A stretch of DNA of 56,832 nucleotides from positions 1 to 56,832 of the IMG/VR virus record IMGVR_UViG_3300027899_000015; one strand, written 5' to 3'. Of the stretch, positions 19,717 through 54,458 are shown one piece after another. The position numbers and the translations under genes are program-made. Within the stretch, counting starts at the first letter, position 1. Each line of letters begins with the position of its first letter. Origin of the DNA: a virus. The notes below the pieces were generated by a model. It made no database searches. It worked only from the letters and a program-made list of their open reading frames with translations, and was not told where the DNA came from.

Positions 19717-21702
19717 TTATTTAAATATATCTTGTAATTGTTTTATTGTGTCAGTAGTTGATGTGTGATGTATTCCAATACCACCTGCATCTTTCCATCT
19801 TTGAATATTATCTGCTCTATCGTCTATTAATATAGCGTTTGGTTTTGCAAATTGTTGTTTTTGATCAGCTGGTCTTAATATAAGTTTAGTACCAGGTAGA
19901 TTTCTTTTTACCCAAACAAACTTACCTATTTTAGATGATTCATCTCTTGAGGGTGCTGATAATAATTCTGGATTGTATTTTTGGATATAACTCCATAATT
20001 GTTTTCCATCAGGCATCCATTTTAGTTTAATCCAAAATGCAGCACCCATTTTATGGATTGGAGCCCAAAATTCTTTAGGATCAGTGCTAAAACTAGCGTC
20101 TGTACCTGTTAATTCTTTATATCCTTTATCAAAATCAACTAATACACCATCCATATCACAATATATCTTATATTGTTCTTGTTTATCTTCATTTAATGTC
20201 TCAAATATTTCAGGATGATATTCACCAAATTTTCTTAACAAAATACCAGCAGCAGCATTTGCTTCATTTTCAACAGGTGAACCTGTAGCTCCATCACCCA
20301 TTCCTAGTTTTTTAATTTCATCTTGTTTACGATGAACTAATTCATGAGCTAGTGTTCTTAAAATATCAGCTGCTAATCTTGGACCTTTAACAACAAGTAA
20401 TTTGCCTGTTTCTGGATTATAAGAGCCTAATGAATGCATATTTCGAGCTAACTCTTCATCATCAGTGAATTCTATTTCGGGTATATTATTTAACTCAAGT
20501 GCTTTAACGGCAAACTCAATAAAATCATCTAATACATTACCGCTACCTGTTCCAACTATTGTTTCTTCTAAACCTGCTTTACTTAGTTTAGAATAATATT
20601 TTGGATCTTCACCTAAATGAGCTAGTGCTATTTTTTTAGCTGCTTCTTCATCAGTGGTATGTTCTTTTTTTTCTGTCTCAATTCCTTTCTTTAATTGTTC
20701 AGGATCAACATCTTTTTCATCTACTGTAGGAACATCAAGTTGAAGTTCAGTTAATGATTTTTTCCACCACCCTATAGTGAATAAATCTTCTTCAACATTA
20801 ACAGGTATATTATGTTTAGTTAAATATTTAAGTACTTGCTCACGTTGTGTTGAGCTATCTCCTAAATTAGGAATTAACATACGTCTTTCCTGTCCATCAA
20901 ATGCATATTGAGAGTATTCAAATGGTATTAACAATGTGTTAAGAAAATTTTCTATTTTTGGAGTTAATTTATAAGGTATTCTTATAATCAACTGACCATC
21001 TTTTTGATTTTCTTGAAGTTGATCTAAATTTAAAACAGGAATACCTAATATATTAAGTATATCATCAAAATCACCTTTTTGAATTACTACATCAGGAAAA
21101 CAACCTTTAAGTAATTCAATATTATTTAAATATTCATTTTTAGCTTTAGAATACTCAGTTGAATTTGTGTCAGATATAGATCTTAAAGTTAATACTGATT
21201 GTTTTATTTTGTCTATTGTTTCACGAACTTGAGTACCAGATAATCTTTTATTTTGTGATACTACTTTTTCATCAATAGCTAAAGGCATCACTCTTGTACT
21301 AAATGCTTTTTGTAATGAAGCAAAATATTCTTGGTCTTCAACTTCTTCTTTAGCACCAGCTACATATGCTATTAATTCTAAATCATTATCCATTCTAGAG
21401 AAAATATCTTTAATTGGAGAAGCATTTTTAGATACTTCAACAGATACTTTAGCCATAGGAGAGGCAGCTAGATATAAATCCCAAATGCGCTTACTCATAC
21501 TCACTGTTATACCATCACGTTCTTTTTGTCCAATTAATACTATAACTTTAGTAATATATGGTCTTGAAGCTAAATCTTTCATAGCTTCATAGTGTCCTTC
21601 ATGTGGTGGTTTAAAACCCCCTGGGTAGAAACAAATAGCAGGTGGAGTTGAACTTTCACCTTCTTCGTTTAATTCACTTAATATTGTATTTAAATCAATC
21701 AT
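19717..21702 (-). CDS. Nucleotidyltransferase - metallopeptidase - HAD phosphatase fusion, 661 residues
   Basis: Leader-like start MIDLNTILSELNEEGES. Residues 20-165 form a nucleotidyltransferase of the cytidylyltransferase/NMN adenylyltransferase type: CFYPGGFKPPHEGHYEAM (HxGH at 34-37) and a C-terminal SGTQVRETI in place of ISxTxxR. Residues 230-380 are a mixed linker including DEEAAKKIALAHLGEDP. Residues 390-495 form a zinc-peptidase-like domain with LAHELVHRK (HExxH at 453-457) and VENEANA (E478 or E480 as third ligand). Residues 510-661 form a HAD-fold nucleotidase with CDMDGVLVDFD (D516, D518) and ILIDDRADN (626-632), like 5'(3')-deoxyribonucleotidases. The combination is unusual. It overlaps a P-loop kinase gene by 4 bases. 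Confidence 0.85.
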   Translation of the reverse strand: MIDLNTILSELNEEGESSTPPAICFYPGGFKPPHEGHYEAMKDLASRPYITKVIVLIGQKERDGITVSMSKRIWDLYLAASPMAKVSVEVSKNASPIKDIFSRMDNDLELIAYVAGAKEEVEDQEYFASLQKAFSTRVMPLAIDEKVVSQNKRLSGTQVRETIDKIKQSVLTLRSISDTNSTEYSKAKNEYLNNIELLKGCFPDVVIQKGDFDDILNILGIPVLNLDQLQENQKDGQLIIRIPYKLTPKIENFLNTLLIPFEYSQYAFDGQERRMLIPNLGDSSTQREQVLKYLTKHNIPVNVEEDLFTIGWWKKSLTELQLDVPTVDEKDVDPEQLKKGIETEKKEHTTDEEAAKKIALAHLGEDPKYYSKLSKAGLEETIVGTGSGNVLDDFIEFAVKALELNNIPEIEFTDDEELARNMHSLGSYNPETGKLLVVKGPRLAADILRTLAHELVHRKQDEIKKLGMGDGATGSPVENEANAAAGILLRKFGEYHPEIFETLNEDKQEQYKIYCDMDGVLVDFDKGYKELTGTDASFSTDPKEFWAPIHKMGAAFWIKLKWMPDGKQLWSYIQKYNPELLSAPSRDESSKIGKFVWVKRNLPGTKLILRPADQKQQFAKPNAILIDDRADNIQRWKDAGGIGIHHTSTTDTIKQLQDIFK

Positions 21703-22424
21703 TTAATAAATTCTTTTACTTTAGCAACAGCAACAGATGCTGGTGTAAATTTTGGTTTTTGTTTCAGATGTGATTTAATATCTCTGTTGAGTTTTTCAAC
21801 ATCTGCTTTTGTTTTAGCTTGTTCTTCAGGTGTTTTTGGTTTGCCTTTTGCTTTTGATGTGTCAAAAAATCTACGTTTTATTTCATTTTCATCAAAATCA
21901 GTTTCAGCATCTTTAGGATCATTATTAATGATAACTAAATTATCACCAAATGCCTGTTGATATGTTTCAATACTGTCATTAATATCTCTCCATGTTCTTA
22001 AAACAATACTAGGCATCAATGAACGTTCTCTATTAGCATTACGTTCAAGTGATGTTATGGGAGATACATAAATCATAATCATCATAGTCTCATATCCTAA
22101 CGCTTCTAGTTCTTCTTTCTTTTTGAGAAGTGGTCTAGAAGCCGCTCCAGTACCGTCAATAATAACATCGTTAAGATTAGATAATGCATTTATATATTTT
22201 TCTTTTGTTGATTTTTGAGCCTGTCCCATTAATTTAGCTGCTTGAGATAACTGTTCAGGATCAAAATCCCTTTGCTTCATACCTAATCCAGATGCTTTTA
22301 ATAATTCTTCATAAGTATCATCAACATTTATTATATGAAATTTTGATAATGGCAAAGATTTAGCAATAAATGACTTACCAGCACCAGCAGGGCCGGCTAA
22401 AAATATTGCTTGTGGTGTACTCAT
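21699..22424 (-). CDS. P-loop kinase of the zeta-toxin/polynucleotide-kinase type, 241 residues
   Basis: Walker A is AGPAGAGKS (residues 10-18). INVDDTYEELL near residue 33 gives the acidic substrate-side motif, and DVIIDGTGAASRPLLKKK near residue 88 matches the Walker-B-like region followed by the Arg of zeta-toxin and polynucleotide 5'-kinase folds. RNANRERSL is a plausible lid. The last 55 residues are Lys-rich (KAKGKPKTPEEQAKTKAD). It may phosphorylate a nucleotide or a nucleic-acid end; being translationally coupled to a nucleotidyltransferase/HAD protein, the pair could act in nucleotide or end processing. The substrate is not readable. A variant late-type motif lies 6 bases upstream. 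Confidence 0.8.
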   Translation of the reverse strand: MSTPQAIFLAGPAGAGKSFIAKSLPLSKFHIINVDDTYEELLKASGLGMKQRDFDPEQLSQAAKLMGQAQKSTKEKYINALSNLNDVIIDGTGAASRPLLKKKEELEALGYETMMIMIYVSPITSLERNANRERSLMPSIVLRTWRDINDSIETYQQAFGDNLVIINNDPKDAETDFDENEIKRRFFDTSKAKGKPKTPEEQAKTKADVEKLNRDIKSHLKQKPKFTPASVAVAKVKEFIK

Positions 22425-22438: not shown

Positions 22439-22921
22439 TTAATTATCTTTCCTTGGGCGCCCACGTTTACCGCCTGTCTTAACGTATACAATTGATTTTT
22501 TCTGTGTTGGGTCCATTTTTGGTCGACCACGTTTACCACCAGTTTTAACATAAACTGTAACCTCTTTTTTAAGTGATGGGTCCATTTTTGGCCTACCACG
22601 TTTACCTGTACCTGTACTTGTACGTATTTTTTCAGCTTTAGCTTTACGTTCAAAATATCTAGGATGAACAATAAGTGAATCAAGAAAAAACGCGCGTCTA
22701 GCTCCACCTTCATCTACACATTCATATCCACCACCTTTCCATCCTGGTGTGCCATCTTGATGTGTACGAACATAATAAAACTTACCACCATTATCATTTT
22801 CATAATAAGTAGCTGGTAATACTTCAATGCCTGATGTAAAATTTAGATATTCTTGTTCATTTTCTTCTACCACATAGGCTTTACGTGGATAGATAGATGC
22901 TTCTACTTCGATTATTCTCAT
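22439..22921 (-). CDS. Triple AT-hook DNA-binding protein, 160 residues
   Basis: The C-terminal third carries three AT-hook cores, KRGRP at residues 107-111, 130-134 and 152-156, each followed by Lys/Met/Asp-Pro and spaced 22-23 residues apart by a conserved linker (VYVKTGG). AT-hooks bind the minor groove of AT-rich DNA, which fits this AT-rich genome. The N-terminal 95 residues are a beta-rich domain of unknown family with VLPATYYENDNGGKFYYV and TPGWKGGGYECVD. It has its own early-type promoter, so it may act early, for example as a nucleoid or transcription protein. The hook repeats are also direct repeats in the DNA. Confidence 0.85.
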   Translation of the reverse strand: MRIIEVEASIYPRKAYVVEENEQEYLNFTSGIEVLPATYYENDNGGKFYYVRTHQDGTPGWKGGGYECVDEGGARRAFFLDSLIVHPRYFERKAKAEKIRTSTGTGKRGRPKMDPSLKKEVTVYVKTGGKRGRPKMDPTQKKSIVYVKTGGKRGRPRKDN

Positions 22922-22938
22922 AACTTTTATTTATATAT

Positions 22939-22965
22939 TAAATATAGTAAAAAAACCGCGGTCAA
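22939..22965 (-). promoter_or_regulatory. Early-type promoter (TTGACCGCG-N10-TATATTTA)
   Basis: TTGACC, 13-base spacer, TATATTTA on the coding strand, 17 bases before the AT-hook gene. The TTGACCGCG extension is identical to that of the 23.2 kb and 56.7 kb sites. Confidence 0.75.
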
Positions 22966-23181
22966 TCAATTTATACTTACAACATTAATTGTTTCTGATA
23001 TTAATTTAACCGCTGATCTATATCTATCTAATTCACTCTCAGTCATTTGTTCAAATAATTTATATATTTGACACTCTTTTTCATATAATTCTACAAATCG
23101 TGGATTTTCAACGTCTATTGTATCTAATTCTATTGTTTCTACAAACAAATTCACGGCTTTCTGTACTAATTGTGTGTTCAT
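22966..23181 (-). CDS. Small helical early protein, 71 residues
   Basis: MNTQLVQKAVNLFVETIELD is followed by acidic helical sequence with ELYEKECQIYKLFEQM. No recognised domain. Acidic, soluble, with no membrane segment. It sits between two nearly identical TTGACCGCG promoters, so it is an independently transcribed small early gene of the kind many phages use to redirect host processes; that is inference from context only. Confidence 0.65.
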   Translation of the reverse strand: MNTQLVQKAVNLFVETIELDTIDVENPRFVELYEKECQIYKLFEQMTESELDRYRSAVKLISETINVVSIN

Positions 23182-23203
23182 AACCTTAATTTTTTATTAT
23201 AAC

Positions 23204-23230
23204 TAAATATAACGAATAAGTCGCGGTCAA
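23204..23230 (-). promoter_or_regulatory. Early-type promoter (TTGACCGCG-N10-TATATTTA)
   Basis: TTGACC, 13-base spacer, TATATTTA on the coding strand, 22 bases before the 71-residue gene. Confidence 0.75.
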
Positions 23231-23234
23231 TCAA

Positions 23235-23438
23235 TTAAAACCCACGTTCCATTCTCCATACTCTTTCATGATGTTCATGTTCAGAGTATACATTAATATT
23301 CAACCATCCCCTATCACCGTATAAATTATTTAAATATTTACGATCTAATTCCGGGTCAAACGCTAATACTATTTCACGTTCTTCGTTAGTTAAAATCTCT
23401 TTTGTGTTAATTAATTCTTGTGCGTTCATATCTTTCAA
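23235..23438 (-). CDS. Small early protein, 67 residues
   Basis: Begins MKDMNAQELINTKEILTNEE and ends with a His/Arg/Trp-rich tail (EHEHHERVWRMERGF). No known domain. An alternative start at the second Met (residue 4) is possible. It is separately transcribed from the early-type promoter 13 bases upstream. The His/Glu cluster HEHHE could bind metal, but this is speculative. Confidence 0.6.
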   Translation of the reverse strand: MKDMNAQELINTKEILTNEEREIVLAFDPELDRKYLNNLYGDRGWLNINVYSEHEHHERVWRMERGF

Positions 23439-23479: not shown

Positions 23480-26440
23480 CTAAAAATTATACCTGATTCC
23501 TAATTGCGCTTGCCAATTTGAATTAACCACATCAACTGAATAGGGTAATTGAGTTGGTTGTTTAAATGTAAATGTTTCACCAGATGCTTTAGTTAGTCCT
23601 ACTGATGATGTAGAATTAAATGTGTTAGATATAAAATATATTTTACCACTATTGATATTAAATATATCAGCAGTTAATTGTAAATGTTTACCTATGTTTT
23701 GGATTAATTTAAAATCCATTGTTGTTGACCATGGTGTTCTACCACCATTACGTTCTGTAAATTGACCCTTTCTACTAGTTAAATATTTATTATTATTTAC
23801 AAAATCCATAAAATCTTGTGCTTGATTTAAATCTAAAATATATTTAGATGCTTCATTTAAATCTTTAAAGATATAAACTAAACCAGCGGCTTGTGGATTA
23901 TTTTGTAATGTTCCATTAACTAATCCCCATGTGAATGGTACTCCACTTTGTGAGTTTATAACTACACCAAATTGTGTTTTCTTTATTTTATAAATAAATT
24001 GAGATATAATTCTATGTCTAATATCAAAGTTTGAATATGCTAATTTAGGATCATTTGGAGTTAGAGATTGATTTAGCTGCCAGTTACTTTCCATTGAATT
24101 GCGGATACCATTTGTGATGTCTTTAGAAACACCATAAGTGTAGGCAGCGTAAACATCTAATCCCCATTTATATTTTTTATTAATTGATGTTGTTAATTGA
24201 TATCTATATCCTTTATCAGTATTAGATAATAAGTAAGCATTTGATAAATTTGAATTTACCTTAACACCACTATATATAGGCATTTGATTTTGAGTATCAA
24301 AGCTATAATATGTTGGGTTATCAGTTACAATATTAATTTGCTGGAATTTAAGATCTGTAAGTACATCTGTGTAAATACCTTCAATTGTTAATTTATAGCC
24401 ATTAATTGTTTTATCAATTGCTAAATTACTTCTCCATATTTTAGGCATTTTAAAACCATTATCAAGTAAATCTACTTGTACTAGATTTTTCTGTCCATTA
24501 TTAAAGGCAAATGTTTTAGAACCATCTGTAATTGGATCACCATTATTTACTAAATCTTTTCTATTGTTTAAATCAAATGAACCAAATCCAATGCCATCAT
24601 TATAATAAGCATATCCTAACCAAGCAAATGGAATACGACCTACAAACACACCCGAACCACCTCTAAATGTCCATGAATTTGATTTATATGTAAAACCTAA
24701 TCTTGGAGATACATTTAAATTATTAAAATAATCATTAGTATATTTAGTTGGTGCTTGGACATTAATTGATGGTTTGTTAGGTAAATCTGTATAGTCAAAC
24801 CTTATACCAGGAGATAATTTTAATTTACCAAATGTAATTTCATCTTGTAAATAACTACTTAATAAATTTATGTTAAAATTAGCATACGGGTTATTAAAAA
24901 TGTGGTCTCTATCATTATTATCAAAGCTATAAAATCCTCTTACTCGGTTTACTTTACCTGTTAAATAATCAGCTAATGATTTGTAAGAAATTCTACCATT
25001 CCAACTATTAACAAACCCATATCCAATATTGTAGAACTCATTATGTGTACCTAATAGGAATGAATGATTACCAATTGAAAAGTTAAAATTATCAGTAAAT
25101 TCAAATGTATTTTGTTTTAAATTAAATACAGTAGCTTCTCTTTCATTACCTATGAATATTGTTCCTCCATTATAAGCAATCTCTGTTTGTGGAAATGATA
25201 CTCTTTCACTTAATGGAGTTCTATAATCGTGAATATTTGTATAGCCTAAAATTAATGAATTTGAAGATTTGTGAAATTGAGATTTAAGTTCTAATACAGA
25301 TGAATTTTGGTTGCTGGTTTGTTTAAAATCCATTGAACCAAATCTGAAATTAGCTGCATCACGTTCTAAGTTAGTAGCACTAGAAAACACTGTGTTATTA
25401 CGAAGTGTTAGCTGATTTTTAGAATTTATATTCCAATCTAAACGGTTGAATAGTTTTTTAGAATCAGAATAAATACTATATGATTGATAATCACCAATAT
25501 TATAGTTATATTTTGTTTTAGTAAAATCAGTTATAACTTTAGCTATACTATCATTAATTAAACCATTTGAATTTGCACCATATAAAATAGGATCAATACG
25601 ATGAGTTGCTTCCTCTGATGTAAAGAAAAATAATTTGTCTTTTATAATTGGAAATCCGATTCTAAATCCACCTTGAATATCTTTAATATTATGTAAATCT
25701 CTCCCAAATGTATAAATAGATCCTTGTACTTTATTTGTTCCGCTTCTTGTGATAGCATTAATCGATCCACCTAAAAAGTTACCAATTTTAACATCAAATG
25801 GAGCAACATATACTTGAATATCTTTAATTGCATCTGCTGATATAGGAGACGTTCTTGTAGATGAACCAGGCATACCTGATGTCCCAGCTTGTCCTCCTAA
25901 TGATGGACTGAATCCAATTGCATCATTATTAATTGTGCCATCAATAGTAACGTTATTGTATCTAAAATTTGTTCCAGCGATTGAGTTATTGATTGATTGA
26001 GGAACTAATTTTGTAAAGTCAGTGATTGACCTGTTTAGTGATGGAGTTGCTTTTAATTTATCTTCATTAATTAATAAACCAGAAGCATTTTTAATAGCAT
26101 TCTTATTAATAACAACTGTTACTGTTTGTAATTGTTTATTATCTTGTTCTAATTTAACATCTAAATCATTATTACCTAAAGTAAAATAGATTTCTGTTTT
26201 TTCATATGGTTTATAACCAACAGAAGTAACCTTAATAATATAAGGACCACCCACGTTTGCATTATAAACATGAAAAAAACCGCTACCATCAGCAGCGGTT
26301 TTATATTTTGTACTTGTTGGAGTATAAATTAATTCAATACTAGAGTTTGCTTCTGTTTTTCCATTAACTGTTGATGTTGTAATTTGAGAAAACGAAACTA
26401 AAGAAATAAGCGTAAATAATGATAACAATAATTTTTTCAT
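23480..26440 (-). CDS. TonB-dependent outer-membrane receptor (Oar-like), full length
   Basis: 986 residues with all expected parts. Signal peptide MKKLLLSLFTLISLVSFSQ ends in the Bacteroidetes-typical SFSQ. Residues 24-108 form a carboxypeptidase-regulatory-like beta domain (DGSGFFHVYNANVGGPYIIK, VTSVGYKPYEK). Residues about 115-245 are a plug domain with NNVTIDGTINNDAIGFS and ISADAIKDIQVYVAPFDVKI, then GNFLGGSINAITRSGTN. The remaining 740 residues read as a beta barrel ending in WQAQLGIRYNF with terminal Phe for Bam recognition. No frameshift is seen. It would import a ligand across the host outer membrane using TonB. It is embedded in phage replication genes on the same strand, with no mobile element at its borders, so it is a phage-carried host-type gene. 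Confidence 0.93.
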   Translation of the reverse strand: MKKLLLSLFTLISLVSFSQITTSTVNGKTEANSSIELIYTPTSTKYKTAADGSGFFHVYNANVGGPYIIKVTSVGYKPYEKTEIYFTLGNNDLDVKLEQDNKQLQTVTVVINKNAIKNASGLLINEDKLKATPSLNRSITDFTKLVPQSINNSIAGTNFRYNNVTIDGTINNDAIGFSPSLGGQAGTSGMPGSSTRTSPISADAIKDIQVYVAPFDVKIGNFLGGSINAITRSGTNKVQGSIYTFGRDLHNIKDIQGGFRIGFPIIKDKLFFFTSEEATHRIDPILYGANSNGLINDSIAKVITDFTKTKYNYNIGDYQSYSIYSDSKKLFNRLDWNINSKNQLTLRNNTVFSSATNLERDAANFRFGSMDFKQTSNQNSSVLELKSQFHKSSNSLILGYTNIHDYRTPLSERVSFPQTEIAYNGGTIFIGNEREATVFNLKQNTFEFTDNFNFSIGNHSFLLGTHNEFYNIGYGFVNSWNGRISYKSLADYLTGKVNRVRGFYSFDNNDRDHIFNNPYANFNINLLSSYLQDEITFGKLKLSPGIRFDYTDLPNKPSINVQAPTKYTNDYFNNLNVSPRLGFTYKSNSWTFRGGSGVFVGRIPFAWLGYAYYNDGIGFGSFDLNNRKDLVNNGDPITDGSKTFAFNNGQKNLVQVDLLDNGFKMPKIWRSNLAIDKTINGYKLTIEGIYTDVLTDLKFQQINIVTDNPTYYSFDTQNQMPIYSGVKVNSNLSNAYLLSNTDKGYRYQLTTSINKKYKWGLDVYAAYTYGVSKDITNGIRNSMESNWQLNQSLTPNDPKLAYSNFDIRHRIISQFIYKIKKTQFGVVINSQSGVPFTWGLVNGTLQNNPQAAGLVYIFKDLNEASKYILDLNQAQDFMDFVNNNKYLTSRKGQFTERNGGRTPWSTTMDFKLIQNIGKHLQLTADIFNINSGKIYFISNTFNSTSSVGLTKASGETFTFKQPTQLPYSVDVVNSNWQAQLGIRYNF

Positions 26441-26442
26441 AA

Positions 26443-26460
26443 AGTGAATTTAGATTCACT
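26443..26460 (-). promoter_or_regulatory. Hairpin in the leader of the TonB-dependent receptor gene
   Basis: A perfect 7-bp inverted repeat (AGTGAAT, 4-base loop, ATTCACT) ending 2 bases before the ATG of the receptor gene. Formed in mRNA it would cover the ribosome-binding region, so it could limit translation. It has no T-tract and is not a terminator. No -33 element is obvious upstream. Confidence 0.4.
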
Positions 26461-26479
26461 AATAATTATTTACCAAATA

Positions 26480-27265
26480 TTACTCAGTTATCTTAATACT
26501 AATAGGTAATGATTCAGTCATAGGCTTGAAATTTGGATTTTCAAGTTTATATATTTTATATATATTCATGAACATTTCAAAATTAGCATCAATATTACTT
26601 ATATGTTTTAATTCCCATCCTTTACCTTGTATTTTATCTCCTTTACCTTCACTACGTGTTGAAGCTTTAAGCCATAGAATACCTGTTTCTTCAATTTTAG
26701 CATCATGAGTTTCATCCCACGCTTTAGCGTAGGCGGCTAATTGTAAATTATGTGATGTGTGAAGTGAATTGGATGTTTTAATATCTAATAACCATAATTT
26801 ACCATCTATTTTACAAATTATATCTGTTGTACCAGCGTACTTATGCTCATCTGAGAATACATGATATTCAGTTGCTACTAATTCTGGTTTATGTGTATTC
26901 CAAAAATCAGCAAATTTAAGAATCATTTTCCATGTATCTAAACTATATAGAGCTTTTCCATATTCATCTAACCATTGGATTTCTTCTCCATTTAAAAAAG
27001 CATCAATAGCGTTATGTACTTGAGTACCTTCTGCTGCTGCTTTAGACGCAATAATATCACTATTATGTCCTACGTCCTTAAGCCAATTATGAAAAAATTG
27101 ATTTTTAGGAAAGAAATTTAATACTGATGTTACAGATGGATAATATTCTTCTCCACGTCTGTAAAATCTACTATCTAAAACATTTACTTGCCTATCTCCC
27201 TCATTGTACTCTACAATGCGTTTGATTTTTGGGTCTTTAATGATGTTGACGTTTCTATCAATCAT
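26480..27265 (-). CDS. PD-(D/E)XK exonuclease (RecB/Cas4-like), 261 residues
   Basis: A single RecB-like nuclease domain. The ordered motifs are GTQVHNAID (H84), TEYHVF (E133), YAGTTDIICKIDG (D148), WLLDIKTS (D161, K163) and LQLAAYAKAW (Q175, Y179). These give the metal-binding D-D-K core plus the QxxxY motif of the RecB/Cas4/lambda-exonuclease-like group. It probably processes DNA ends during replication and recombination. It overlaps the primase gene by 4 bases, so the two are coupled. No Fe-S cluster cysteines are visible, so it is not Cas4 itself. Length is usual for stand-alone phage members. Confidence 0.88.
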   Translation of the reverse strand: MIDRNVNIIKDPKIKRIVEYNEGDRQVNVLDSRFYRRGEEYYPSVTSVLNFFPKNQFFHNWLKDVGHNSDIIASKAAAEGTQVHNAIDAFLNGEEIQWLDEYGKALYSLDTWKMILKFADFWNTHKPELVATEYHVFSDEHKYAGTTDIICKIDGKLWLLDIKTSNSLHTSHNLQLAAYAKAWDETHDAKIEETGILWLKASTRSEGKGDKIQGKGWELKHISNIDANFEMFMNIYKIYKLENPNFKPMTESLPISIKITE

Positions 27266-28200
27266 GCTAATTCTAGTTTTTTGTAAATTAGTTCACCTAG
27301 AGACAATTGCTCAGCTTCATGAACTAACTTGGTAAATTTTTCGAAGCCCATATCAGATGGATCTTTATCTTGTAAATCAATTAAGTAAACGTCTTTACCT
27401 AAATTGAGTAATTGTTCTGCATATTGTAAAGCATCTTTTAAGGCGTCCCTATCTAAAGATACGTATACTGTTTTAACTTGTGGATCAATAAGTTTCATCA
27501 TTAATGCTCTAGGTATTGTTTTTCCCAATAATGGTACTGCATTACGTTTAATAGCAATAGCATCAAAAATACCTTCACATAATATAACAGGAACATTCCA
27601 GTTAATGAAATATTCTAATCCAATCATTTCGTTTTTATTACATTTAGGAGCATCATATTTTTTTGTTGAGTCAGGATCTAAAGATCTGGCTATGAAATAA
27701 TTTATGCTTCCGTCTTTGTCATAAGATGGTATAATAACTCTGTTGGCATATCTGCCTTCTTCACAATACCCTATATTATACTTCAATATATCTGACTTAG
27801 TAATACCTCGTTTTTTTAAATACATTAAAGCGTGTTTAGCGACGATATCTGTACGGTGTAGATTAACAAGTGGTTTATATTCTTTAGGTAATTGTACTTT
27901 ATTAATAATAATTTCTTTTTCCTCTTGTGTAGGAGTGAAATTCAACATTGATTTCAACTCAGCTATTTTATCAGAGGATACTTTTGCTTTTTTAAATAAA
28001 CCTAATAATGTTTTTCCCTTAGCATTACAAACCCAACAATGCCAAAAATTTTCTCCTTTAGAGTTTGGTACTACATTTACCTCTAATTTAAGTTTCTGAT
28101 GAGTACAGAATGGACATTTATAAGCGTAGTTGTTATTACTGGTTTTTTTACCAGGACCTAACACATTGTTTATTGTATGTAATAATGCTGTATTAATCAT
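27262..28200 (-). CDS. DnaG/T4 gp61-type primase, 312 residues
   Basis: Makes RNA primers for lagging-strand synthesis. The N-terminal zinc-binding domain has CPFC (Cys 29 and 32) and CWVC (Cys 55 and 58). The TOPRIM catalytic part has VILCEGIFDAIAI (E209) and VYVSLDRDALKDA (D250, D252), and NRVIIPSYDKDG fits the RNA-polymerase-like segment before it. Its length is close to T4 gp61 (342). It comes directly before the RecB-like nuclease gene. I saw no separate replicative helicase in this window; one would be expected elsewhere. A palindrome-like AGTAAAA/TTTTACT repeat lies in the short gap upstream. Confidence 0.9.
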   Translation of the reverse strand: MINTALLHTINNVLGPGKKTSNNNYAYKCPFCTHQKLKLEVNVVPNSKGENFWHCWVCNAKGKTLLGLFKKAKVSSDKIAELKSMLNFTPTQEEKEIIINKVQLPKEYKPLVNLHRTDIVAKHALMYLKKRGITKSDILKYNIGYCEEGRYANRVIIPSYDKDGSINYFIARSLDPDSTKKYDAPKCNKNEMIGLEYFINWNVPVILCEGIFDAIAIKRNAVPLLGKTIPRALMMKLIDPQVKTVYVSLDRDALKDALQYAEQLLNLGKDVYLIDLQDKDPSDMGFEKFTKLVHEAEQLSLGELIYKKLELA

Positions 28201-51973: not shown

Positions 51974-53167
51974 TTATTTAGTTATATATTTAACTAATTC
52001 TTTATTCAACATCATCAATTTAAATTTGTTTGGATTACTATTATAAATCGATTTAACCATATTATAACTTACATCCGTAGCAAATATTTTCTCGGTAACA
52101 ATCTTACTTATACGTTCTATAAGTGGTTTTTCAATCGCATTTTCTTTAGAATAGAACTCTAAATAGTTAGACAATCTAGTACCTAATGTAGCGGCAATAT
52201 CGGCTCTATATTCTTTATCTTTACCAACTAAACTCTTAAGTGTATTAGTTACATACTGTTCATCTTGTGTTAAGATATTTTCTGGTGAAATCATCTTATC
52301 CAATTTATTATTAATGAACATTGTAAACAAAGTACTAAACTCATTACCAACACTACCTTCTCCAATCATCTGAATCAACGGTAACGATTCTTCAAAACTT
52401 TTAATTGAACTAATACTATTAAAGAACATACTAACACTTCTACTATTAACTTGTTTAGTAACTAGTTCTGGATGCATCAACATAAAGTTAATACAACGAC
52501 CATCTAACTTATTTTCTTCAGCCCACTTACCCCAACATTTAAGATCAAACTTTAAATTAACACTAATGAACCTTGTTTTTTGAGCGTTATCAATACTATT
52601 AACTAAATAATCTCCATTATCAGGATTTGATGTAAGAATAATATGCCAATCTTTAGGTAGTTTCCAACTTATATATTGTTGTCTATCTATTAACTCCATT
52701 ACAGCTTGAATAAACCTCATATCAGCTCTATTCCAGTCATCCAATAATAGAATACCACCATTTGTTTTACCACTAATCCATTCAGGTGGACAATAACTCA
52801 TACGATTCAAACCAGTTGATTCAAATCCTTTCTTACGGTAGTCTTCAACTGAATTCTCATCTACCCATTCAGATGTTTTTTTATCTTTCATTTCAAATTG
52901 ACGGATTGGAAAACCAACCAAGTCACCTATTTCTTCAATTTGTGCTAAGTTCAATTTAACAAAATTTAAACCTAACTCATCTGCTAATTGAATAATAGAT
53001 GATGTTTTACCAATACCCGAATCACCTACTACCTCGGTACTAACCATAGGCTTTTTATTTTCTTGTAGGTAACGGTTGTTGTCAATAATGTGTTTTAGAA
53101 AATCTTTTAATTCATGTACATTCAATGATACTGATGCGTTTGTGGTTGTTGTTTTACTTTTTGCCAT
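51974..53167 (-). CDS. MoxR-like AAA+ ATPase, 397 residues
   Basis: Walker A GDSGIGKTS (48-56), Walker B ILLLDDWNRAD (139 onward), sensor-1 ILTSNPDNGD (near 177-186) and R199 in NAQKTRFISVNL match MoxR/CbbQ-type AAA+ ATPases, which remodel or activate partner proteins. DLVGFPIRQFEM after the first strand fits the family too. The downstream partner-like gene is the upstream metallopeptidase/VWA protein, the classic MoxR partner type. It has its own early-type promoter 22 bases upstream. The C-terminal 180 residues form the helical lid and an extra helical domain. Confidence 0.88.
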   Translation of the reverse strand: MAKSKTTTTNASVSLNVHELKDFLKHIIDNNRYLQENKKPMVSTEVVGDSGIGKTSSIIQLADELGLNFVKLNLAQIEEIGDLVGFPIRQFEMKDKKTSEWVDENSVEDYRKKGFESTGLNRMSYCPPEWISGKTNGGILLLDDWNRADMRFIQAVMELIDRQQYISWKLPKDWHIILTSNPDNGDYLVNSIDNAQKTRFISVNLKFDLKCWGKWAEENKLDGRCINFMLMHPELVTKQVNSRSVSMFFNSISSIKSFEESLPLIQMIGEGSVGNEFSTLFTMFINNKLDKMISPENILTQDEQYVTNTLKSLVGKDKEYRADIAATLGTRLSNYLEFYSKENAIEKPLIERISKIVTEKIFATDVSYNMVKSIYNSNPNKFKLMMLNKELVKYITK

Positions 53168-53216: not shown

Positions 53217-54458
53217 TTATGAATTAATTTGTATTTTAGCTCCAGGCAATTCATTATTAATACTTCGTCCTGAACAATGAACCCATAATGTAGGCTTACA
53301 AGGTGTTGATCTAACTGAACACTCCCCATCTGTTAAATAAATTAAGTTTTGATATTTATCTTTATTATCCCATAAATAATCAAGTACTGGTTCATAACTT
53401 GTTCCACCTCTACCTGTTACTTCTAAAGCCTCTTCAATTTTACCTTTATATTCATAAACACGACCAATTGAAGCATCACATTCAACAACAGTTACTTGTG
53501 TACCTGTCTTCCAAATATGATATATTTCACTTAAAAATTCCTTCAAATCATCTTTACTAACTGATCCTGATGTGTCAATAGCAACTAATGTATTTTTCTT
53601 TTGTTTAATCTTAAGAGCTGGATTACCATAAAAACGTTTATTTGGTTTACGTCTTGTTTTCTTAGTATATACTTTAGATGCCATACCATTAAAACGTCTT
53701 AGATAAGCTCTCCAATCAATAACTGCTTCTTCACTTACATATAAGCTATCAATTAATTCTTTTAATTCACCTGGTATATGTCCTCTTTGTTTTTGTACTT
53801 GTTCAGCAACGTCTTTAAGTTGATATTCAATTTGCTTCTCCATTAACTTCTTTTCTGCTTCATCCATACCCTCAAATTGTTTCCAAAACTCATGAGACGC
53901 TTTAATAGTTACTTTAGTACCATCCCCTAATGTTATTTCTCCTTGCATACCACCATTATTAGCTTCTTTCATAGCATCTAACATTTTACAAACATCTCCA
54001 TCTGGGTTGTCTTTACATTCTTTTAAAAGTAATTCATAATACTTTCTAGTACCTGCTTTTAAAGGCATTTTCAATTCTTTAAATGGAGAGTTAGTTATTT
54101 CTAAACCATCCCATGTTTCATCTTTGTATTCGTCTTGAATATATTGATTTATTTCAATATCAGCAGCTACATTCAATAATGTTTTGTCTTCAAACTCATC
54201 AAACATATAAAGGTGTTTAAATGCAATATGTAACAATTCATGTTTCAAAACAGCTACTTTACATTTATCACTTATTGTATCCCAAAATTTAGGACTAATA
54301 ACTAACTTAGTATTAATACCATCTCTAGCTACACATGCAGTTGAAACAGCATCATTTATTTCTTTATTAAGACCAATTAAAAACAAACCATAAAACGGTT
54401 CTTTAAACATTAATGTTTTTGAGTGTTTTGCTATTTCACTGTGCATGTCTGATATCAT
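53217..54458 (-). CDS. Metallopeptidase-like / VWA protein (DUF2201 type), 413 residues
   Basis: N-terminal part: LKHELLHIAFKHLYMFDEFE with HExxH at 73-77 and a further His at 82, a zinc-peptidase-like site typical of DUF2201/VWA_2 proteins. C-terminal part: VWA domain with MIDAS residues DTSGS (295-299), T353 in GRGGTSYEPVLD and D377 in IYLTDGECS. Central region is helical and acidic/basic mixed. Such proteins pair with MoxR-like AAA ATPases, and the AAA gene lies next to it. The pair may act as a chaperone that builds or remodels a complex, or as a peptidase system. In a phage the target is unknown. Confidence 0.87.
   Translation of the reverse strand: MISDMHSEIAKHSKTLMFKEPFYGLFLIGLNKEINDAVSTACVARDGINTKLVISPKFWDTISDKCKVAVLKHELLHIAFKHLYMFDEFEDKTLLNVAADIEINQYIQDEYKDETWDGLEITNSPFKELKMPLKAGTRKYYELLLKECKDNPDGDVCKMLDAMKEANNGGMQGEITLGDGTKVTIKASHEFWKQFEGMDEAEKKLMEKQIEYQLKDVAEQVQKQRGHIPGELKELIDSLYVSEEAVIDWRAYLRRFNGMASKVYTKKTRRKPNKRFYGNPALKIKQKKNTLVAIDTSGSVSKDDLKEFLSEIYHIWKTGTQVTVVECDASIGRVYEYKGKIEEALEVTGRGGTSYEPVLDYLWDNKDKYQNLIYLTDGECSVRSTPCKPTLWVHCSGRSINNELPGAKIQINS

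Follow-up and report, generated by a model that had tools for sequence, protein, structure and literature searches.

An Oar-like TonB-dependent receptor gene in a variable slot of a T4-like Bacteroidota phage and its candidate role in phosphorus acquisition

Introduction

The best-known phosphorus genes of phages come from marine cyanophages, T4-like phages that carry the host phosphorus-acquisition genes pstS and phoA for the periplasmic PstS and PhoA. These genes encode a periplasmic binding protein and a phosphatase, whereas the gene described here encodes a predicted outer-membrane transporter. Phage-coded outer-membrane proteins that alter the cell surface are also known, such as the porin of phage PA-2. 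A putative SusC TonB-dependent receptor (TBDR) was found in the marine megaphage Mar_Mega_1 and in LR745206 and was proposed to raise uptake (PMC9723777), so that a phage-coded TBDR is not new as such. These phages share this trait with the phage analysed here but belong to another phage group, and neither exchange at a slot nor a link to phosphorus was described for them. LR745206 matches one receptor type treated below (L003-type) at only 27% and gives no match to the receptor under study.

On the bacterial side, Lidbury et al. tabulated the genes of Flavobacterium johnsoniae that are induced by Pi depletion (PMC8115612). Among them, Fjoh_3841 is an orphan TonB-dependent transporter (TBDT) with values of 7.69 for the transcript and 8.34 for the exoproteome (Table 1, PMC8115612). 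The receptors Fjoh_3857 and Fjoh_0545 and the lipoproteins Fjoh_3856 (FI) and Fjoh_0546 (FII) are also Pi-induced (PMC8115612). PUSIII (Fjoh_3856/3857) and the PhoBR operon (Fjoh_0541-0546) combine a TBDT with an FI or FII beta-helix lipoprotein, along with a glycosyltransferase (PMC8115612). Among the open-licence papers searched, none describes T4-like Bacteroidota phages with a phosphate-linked hotspot in which TBDRs are exchangeable parts, and nothing was found on phage phosphorus genes together with TonB in Bacteroidetes. Here, we analysed a receptor gene in a virus record of 56,832 bases, hereafter called the window.

Genomic setting of the receptor gene

The window is a linear and incomplete virus fragment with no end repeats. 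Its terminase is of the T4 type and shares 59% identity with that of Flavobacterium phage immuto, and its portal and baseplate genes are also of T4 type. Judged by these sequences, the window is a fragment of a T4-like myovirus related to immuto, and the label "lytic-type" given in an earlier sequence-only reading is compatible with such a phage.

That reading had also placed the receptor between primase/nuclease genes and small genes on the same strand and with similar base composition, which our annotation bears out. All genes of this region are on the minus strand. Upstream of the receptor are a PD-(D/E)XK exonuclease (26480..27265), the fixed upstream border of a variable slot, and beyond it a DnaG-type primase (27262..28200). 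Downstream, three small genes (23235-23438, 22966-23181 and 22439-22921, spanning 22439..23438) are kept below the slot in near relatives. They are followed by a P-loop kinase/zeta-toxin-like protein at the downstream border (21699..22424) and by a NadR-like nucleotidyltransferase/DUF5661/deoxyribonucleotidase-like fusion (19717..21702), which is syntenic with the NadR and 5'-nucleotidase genes of immuto. This fusion of 661 residues also holds a HELVH metallopeptidase-like motif ahead of its deoxyribonucleotidase-like end. The 160-residue product of 22439-22921 carries three AT-hook-like RGRP repeats (GKRGRPKMDP and similar) and is possibly a DNA-binding phage protein.

Architecture of the receptor

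The receptor gene is an intact open reading frame (23480..26440, minus strand) that starts with ATG and encodes an Oar-like TBDR of 986 residues with a terminal Phe. This assignment draws on sequence, Pfam, alignment, fold, orthologues and dN/dS. By eye, the N terminus (residues 1-19, 26384..26440, minus strand) resembles a signal peptide: MKKLLLSLFTLISLVSFSQ. It is followed by a degenerate carboxypeptidase-regulatory-like domain (residues 20-100, 26141..26383, minus strand), with matches to PF13620 (E 7e-5) and PF13715 (E 2e-5) that both fall below the Pfam curated cut-off; in the viral orthologues L404 and L406 the domain scores above it. Alignment placed a TonB-box-like motif at residues 104-114 (26099..26131, minus strand; QLQTVTVV, against QLKEVVVV in L404) that lacks the usual acidic residue in the window receptor. 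Both the TonB box and the N-terminal domain of this receptor are somewhat divergent.

The plug region (residues 125-240, 25721..26068, minus strand), delimited by alignment, is the best-conserved part of the protein among viral and bacterial relatives, with a conservation of 0.93 in the viral receptor sequences vs 0.86 for the barrel. The Pfam Plug model PF07715 gave no match to the window receptor. The outer-membrane beta-barrel (residues 241-986, 23483..25720, minus strand) matches the Oar-type model PF25183 (OMP_b-brl_4) with an E-value of 8e-23, above the Pfam cut-off. An AlphaFold model (mean pLDDT 73) shows a large beta-barrel, with the plug at low confidence and poorly resolved. The best solved-structure matches to this model are the TonB-dependent transporters YddB, FusA and PirA (E 3e-24 for E. 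coli YddB), while a PDB search with the sequence of the window receptor returned nothing. PHROGs contains no family for receptors of the window, L096, L108 and L404 types.

The complete Oar-like receptor with signal peptide and Phe-terminated barrel that the sequence-only reading had announced was thus confirmed by sequence, PF25183 and fold. Its regulatory domain and plug are both recognisable, but the former stays below the Pfam cut-off and the latter is known from alignment, PF07715 being silent. We rejected an identity as SusC/PusC of the SusCD type, as no SusD/PusD-like lipoprotein is adjacent; the receptor gene is bordered by the exonuclease and by small phage genes.

Integrity of the gene in the phage genome

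We compared the window with L002, its nearest relative. The two share 92.6% identity up to window position 26504, and similarity resumes at 23491 with 95.0% identity. In the interval between these flanks, L002 carries a 1.5 kb glycosyltransferase and phosphoesterase cassette, for which the stretch 23491..26504 stands in. The receptor is therefore absent from the nearest relative, an absence that the sequence-only reading, coupling it with pseudogene decay, had named as an argument against a genuine phage gene. Decay was not seen, and in L002 another cassette takes the place of the receptor.

An initial pattern search that used only the window receptor gave zero viral relatives. An alignment-based search then yielded four close ones, so that the earlier negative reflects a limit of the pattern method. 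These orthologues, 69-72% identical to the window receptor, are on four other viral contigs (L404, L405, L406 and L414) and outside the exonuclease-kinase slot. They are located near 10 kb in L404, L406 and L414 and near 6 kb in L405, and a conserved secreted protein is found close to the orthologue in L404, L405 and L414. Their different placement indicates that the receptor gene moves between slots. The gene is intact in all five members of the window family, with pairwise dN/dS values of 0.12-0.20 (0.07 for the closest pair); medians for two other receptor families are 0.14 and 0.08.

Contents of the variable slot

Scans with the primase and exonuclease of the window retrieved 160 related viral loci. 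Gene order around the slot, which lies between the exonuclease and the kinase/NadR genes, is kept among them; immuto has the same order, with the receptor absent from the slot. We took a census of 63 distinct loci, selected independently of TBDRs and each extending at least 0.8 kb beyond the exonuclease. A TBDR was present in 10, an LpxH/PlcP-like phosphoesterase in 16 and a beta-helix lipoprotein in four, and 26 of the 63 contained at least one member of this set (glycosyltransferase included). The slot phosphoesterase usually adjoins a glycosyltransferase. It matches LpxH-type models below their cut-off and also PF12850, the Pfam family given for PlcP in the Flavobacterium study (PMC8115612), and from its sequence it may act as a PlcP.

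Receptors of several types occupy the slot. Those of L108 and L142 are 28-33% identical to the window receptor. L305, whose exonuclease is 84% identical to that of the window, carries an L108-type receptor, and L003, L096 and others carry one of the OMP_b-brl_3 type. The slot between the exonuclease and the kinase/NadR genes is an exchange hotspot. A fourth receptor type, Plug-containing and siderophore/haem-receptor-like, was seen at the same slot in L138 (10908-13424); its best NCBIfam matches are haemoglobin, siderophore and B12 receptors, all under cut-off. In L096 (9620-14494), overlapping genes encode an OMP_b-brl_3 receptor, a beta-helix lipoprotein, a family 2 glycosyltransferase and a calcineurin-like phosphoesterase, an arrangement that resembles a mini phosphate-starvation operon. 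The model of this lipoprotein is right-handed beta-helix-like, and its matches to pectate-lyase-type folds combine a high probability with weak E-values.

With the L003-type and L108-type receptors as queries, scans gave 80 and 78 viral loci, respectively. Of these, 63 and 62 carry one or more homologues of proteins from immuto or the window phage, and 44 and 46 carry two or more. In chromosomal control loci, the sole matches to these phage proteins were ribonucleotide reductase and an aminotransferase. Overall, receptor genes of these families occur on more than 150 viral loci, duplicate contigs not yet being removed; some IMG/VR contigs may be misclassified or near-duplicates, so that locus numbers are not phage counts. 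Among 50,697 deposited phage records, no close copy of these receptors was found, which indicates that work on isolates has missed them.

Origin and bacterial gene neighbourhoods

A phylogeny against Bacteroidetes receptors, proposed in the sequence-only reading as a way to find the donor, was built from 137 receptors (quick search, with two long-branch joins flagged by the program). The window receptor groups with its four viral orthologues in a single clade (SH-aLRT 100) that falls within the Bacteroidota receptors, near those of Flavobacteriia and of Cytophagales (Arcicella and its relatives, at about 55-59% identity). At least four changes of virus/host label are needed over this tree, which implies repeated transfer of receptors between hosts and viruses. 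The window receptor is a host-derived gene fixed in a phage genome.

The closest bacterial relative (L324, 55%) is flanked by a PiT transporter on one side and by a glycosyltransferase and phosphoesterase pair on the other, this phosphoesterase being 45% identical to the slot phosphoesterase of the nearest phage. The same types of parts are thus found at the bacterial locus and in the phage slot. Other window-type copies adjoin related functions: the order is PhoB-PhoR-PhoU_div-PiT-TBDT in L341 and PhoU_div-PiT-TBDT in L334, in L332 and L351 the TBDT has PhoBR as its neighbour (the names PhoB and PhoR denote best-ranked matches below NCBIfam cut-offs), GDPD and polyphosphate kinase are found in L326, and phosphoesterases in L325 and L327. 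A pair of TBDT and beta-helix genes is located beside the window-type receptor in four loci (L368, L382, L384 and L387).

Phosphorus genes were counted at 12 of 80 loci, compared with none of 20 random regions, an enrichment that is overstated because some markers were picked from these same loci. With independent markers, PhoB and PhoR were detected in three loci (identity of at least 70%) and the beta-helix lipoprotein in four. Copies of the window type in core Flavobacterium and Chryseobacterium mostly have no phosphorus genes within 6 kb. For bacterial copies of the L108 type, a phosphatase (PhoD) is nearby in only two of 13 loci.

Comparison with the Flavobacterium johnsoniae Pho regulon

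The genome used for comparison is one that we take to be that of F. johnsoniae UW101, because two published clusters were reproduced in it gene by gene. One matches Fjoh_0541-0546 (glycosyltransferase, OprP-like, PhoR, PhoB, TBDT, lipoprotein) and the other Fjoh_3851-3857 (PPK-like through FI lipoprotein and TBDT). The L108-type homologue lies ten genes before Fjoh_3851 and is by this count Fjoh_3841, in which the expected PF13620 domain is present. The L108 receptor is 59% identical to Fjoh_3841 over its length. Fjoh_3857 and Fjoh_0545 are homologues of the L003-type receptor (27% identity between L003 and Fjoh_3857), and beta-helix lipoproteins of sister phages share 35% identity with Fjoh_3856 (FI) and 33% with Fjoh_0546 (FII).

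Sister phages therefore resemble PUSIII and the PhoBR operon in having a homologous TBDT and lipoprotein, plus a glycosyltransferase and a PlcP-like phosphoesterase. They differ in that the slot lacks the PhoBR regulators and the glycosyltransferase belongs to family 2, not family 28. In the Flavobacterium locus L547, consecutive genes encode a phosphoesterase, a glycosyltransferase, PhoR-like and PhoB-like proteins, a TBDT and a beta-helix protein.

Fjoh_3841 shares with the window receptor an Oar-like architecture with a carboxypeptidase-regulatory domain, at 29% identity. Unlike the window gene it is chromosomal, and the window receptor belongs to a paralogous subfamily. The F. johnsoniae member of that subfamily (52% identical, near position 4,666,832) is not among the Pi-induced genes in the table of PMC8115612.

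Proposed function and alternatives

We propose that the receptor is probably a host-derived auxiliary metabolic gene for phosphorus acquisition, because phosphate-starvation genes recur in the slot, bacterial relatives adjoin phosphorus genes, and the orthologue of a sister-phage receptor is Pi-induced. The sequence-only reading had suggested raised uptake of a scarce nutrient, a suggestion that these three observations support and narrow to phosphorus. The dN/dS values of 0.12-0.20 and the high conservation of the plug also count in favour of our proposal. The receptor would be made early in infection, inserted into the outer membrane by the host BAM machinery and energised by host TonB. It would sustain or broaden the flow of phosphorus compounds through the outer membrane of the Bacteroidota host, and the imported phosphorus would feed phage DNA synthesis. 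In related phages, the LpxH/PlcP-like phosphoesterase and glycosyltransferase of the slot would free phosphate from membrane lipids. Expression during infection, the phosphorus ligand and the benefit to the phage are what we infer from this genomic context.

That the gene is an assembly artefact, or host DNA without a function in the phage, is extremely improbable. The record is a metagenomic fragment, but independent viral contigs hold receptors at the same slot, orthologues with 69-72% identity exist on four viral contigs, the swap with the L002 cassette is clean between flanks of 93-95% identity, and dN/dS of 0.12-0.20 indicates purifying selection; we therefore rejected a chimera. The choice of substrate is less settled. 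A nutrient receptor for a metal complex, vitamin, glycan or peptide, without phosphorus, would agree with the breadth of the Oar family, whose ligands are mostly unknown, with the L138 receptor at the same slot being nearest (below cut-off) to haemoglobin, siderophore and B12 receptors, and with the window-type orthologue of F. johnsoniae lying outside the Pi table. Against this stand the recurrence of phosphate-starvation genes in the slot and the phosphorus genes beside the closest bacterial relatives, and we regard such a substrate as unlikely.

The sequence-only reading had also raised superinfection exclusion. The phage-coded receptor would then hide the entry receptor, take its place or compete with it. 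Phages use TonB receptors, surface-changing phage outer-membrane proteins are known, and receptor types vary among close relatives as an arms race would produce. However, the plug is better conserved than the barrel and a TonB-box-like motif is kept, neither of which a pure surface mask needs, and the alternatives in the slot are phosphoesterases, glycosyltransferases and beta-helix lipoproteins. Conservation of the plug is more readily explained by a working transporter than by a passive mask. We found no specific support for a block of superinfection and consider it improbable.

Phosphorus acquisition could also be framed at the level of the lineage, in a proposal that might go either way: T4-like Bacteroidota phages would carry, beside their replication genes, an exchangeable phosphate-starvation hotspot into which pieces of the Pho regulon are swapped, serving both phosphorus import and the stripping of phosphorus from lipids. 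The candidate pieces are at least three receptor families, FI/FII beta-helix lipoproteins and the LpxH/PlcP-like phosphoesterase with its glycosyltransferase. If so, Bacteroidota phages would act at the outer-membrane step, through energised TonB transporters and surface lipoproteins, and would pair phosphorus import there with recycling of membrane-lipid phosphorus. The finding would also make it possible to test what limits the growth of phages in Bacteroidota, and would open a way to study the orphan receptors and beta-helix lipoproteins that belong to the Pho regulon of Flavobacterium.

Other features of the window

Two further regions of the minus strand were noted. Between 28695 and 33475, three successive proteins have long Ser-Thr-Pro repeats of the PSITPS/RTPS type between folded segments; the GC skew changes locally, and the proteins are probably tail or surface proteins with flexible linkers. 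A VWA/metallopeptidase-like protein (DUF2201, 53217-54458) adjoins an AAA+ ATPase-like protein (51974-53167), which resembles MoxR-VWA pairs.
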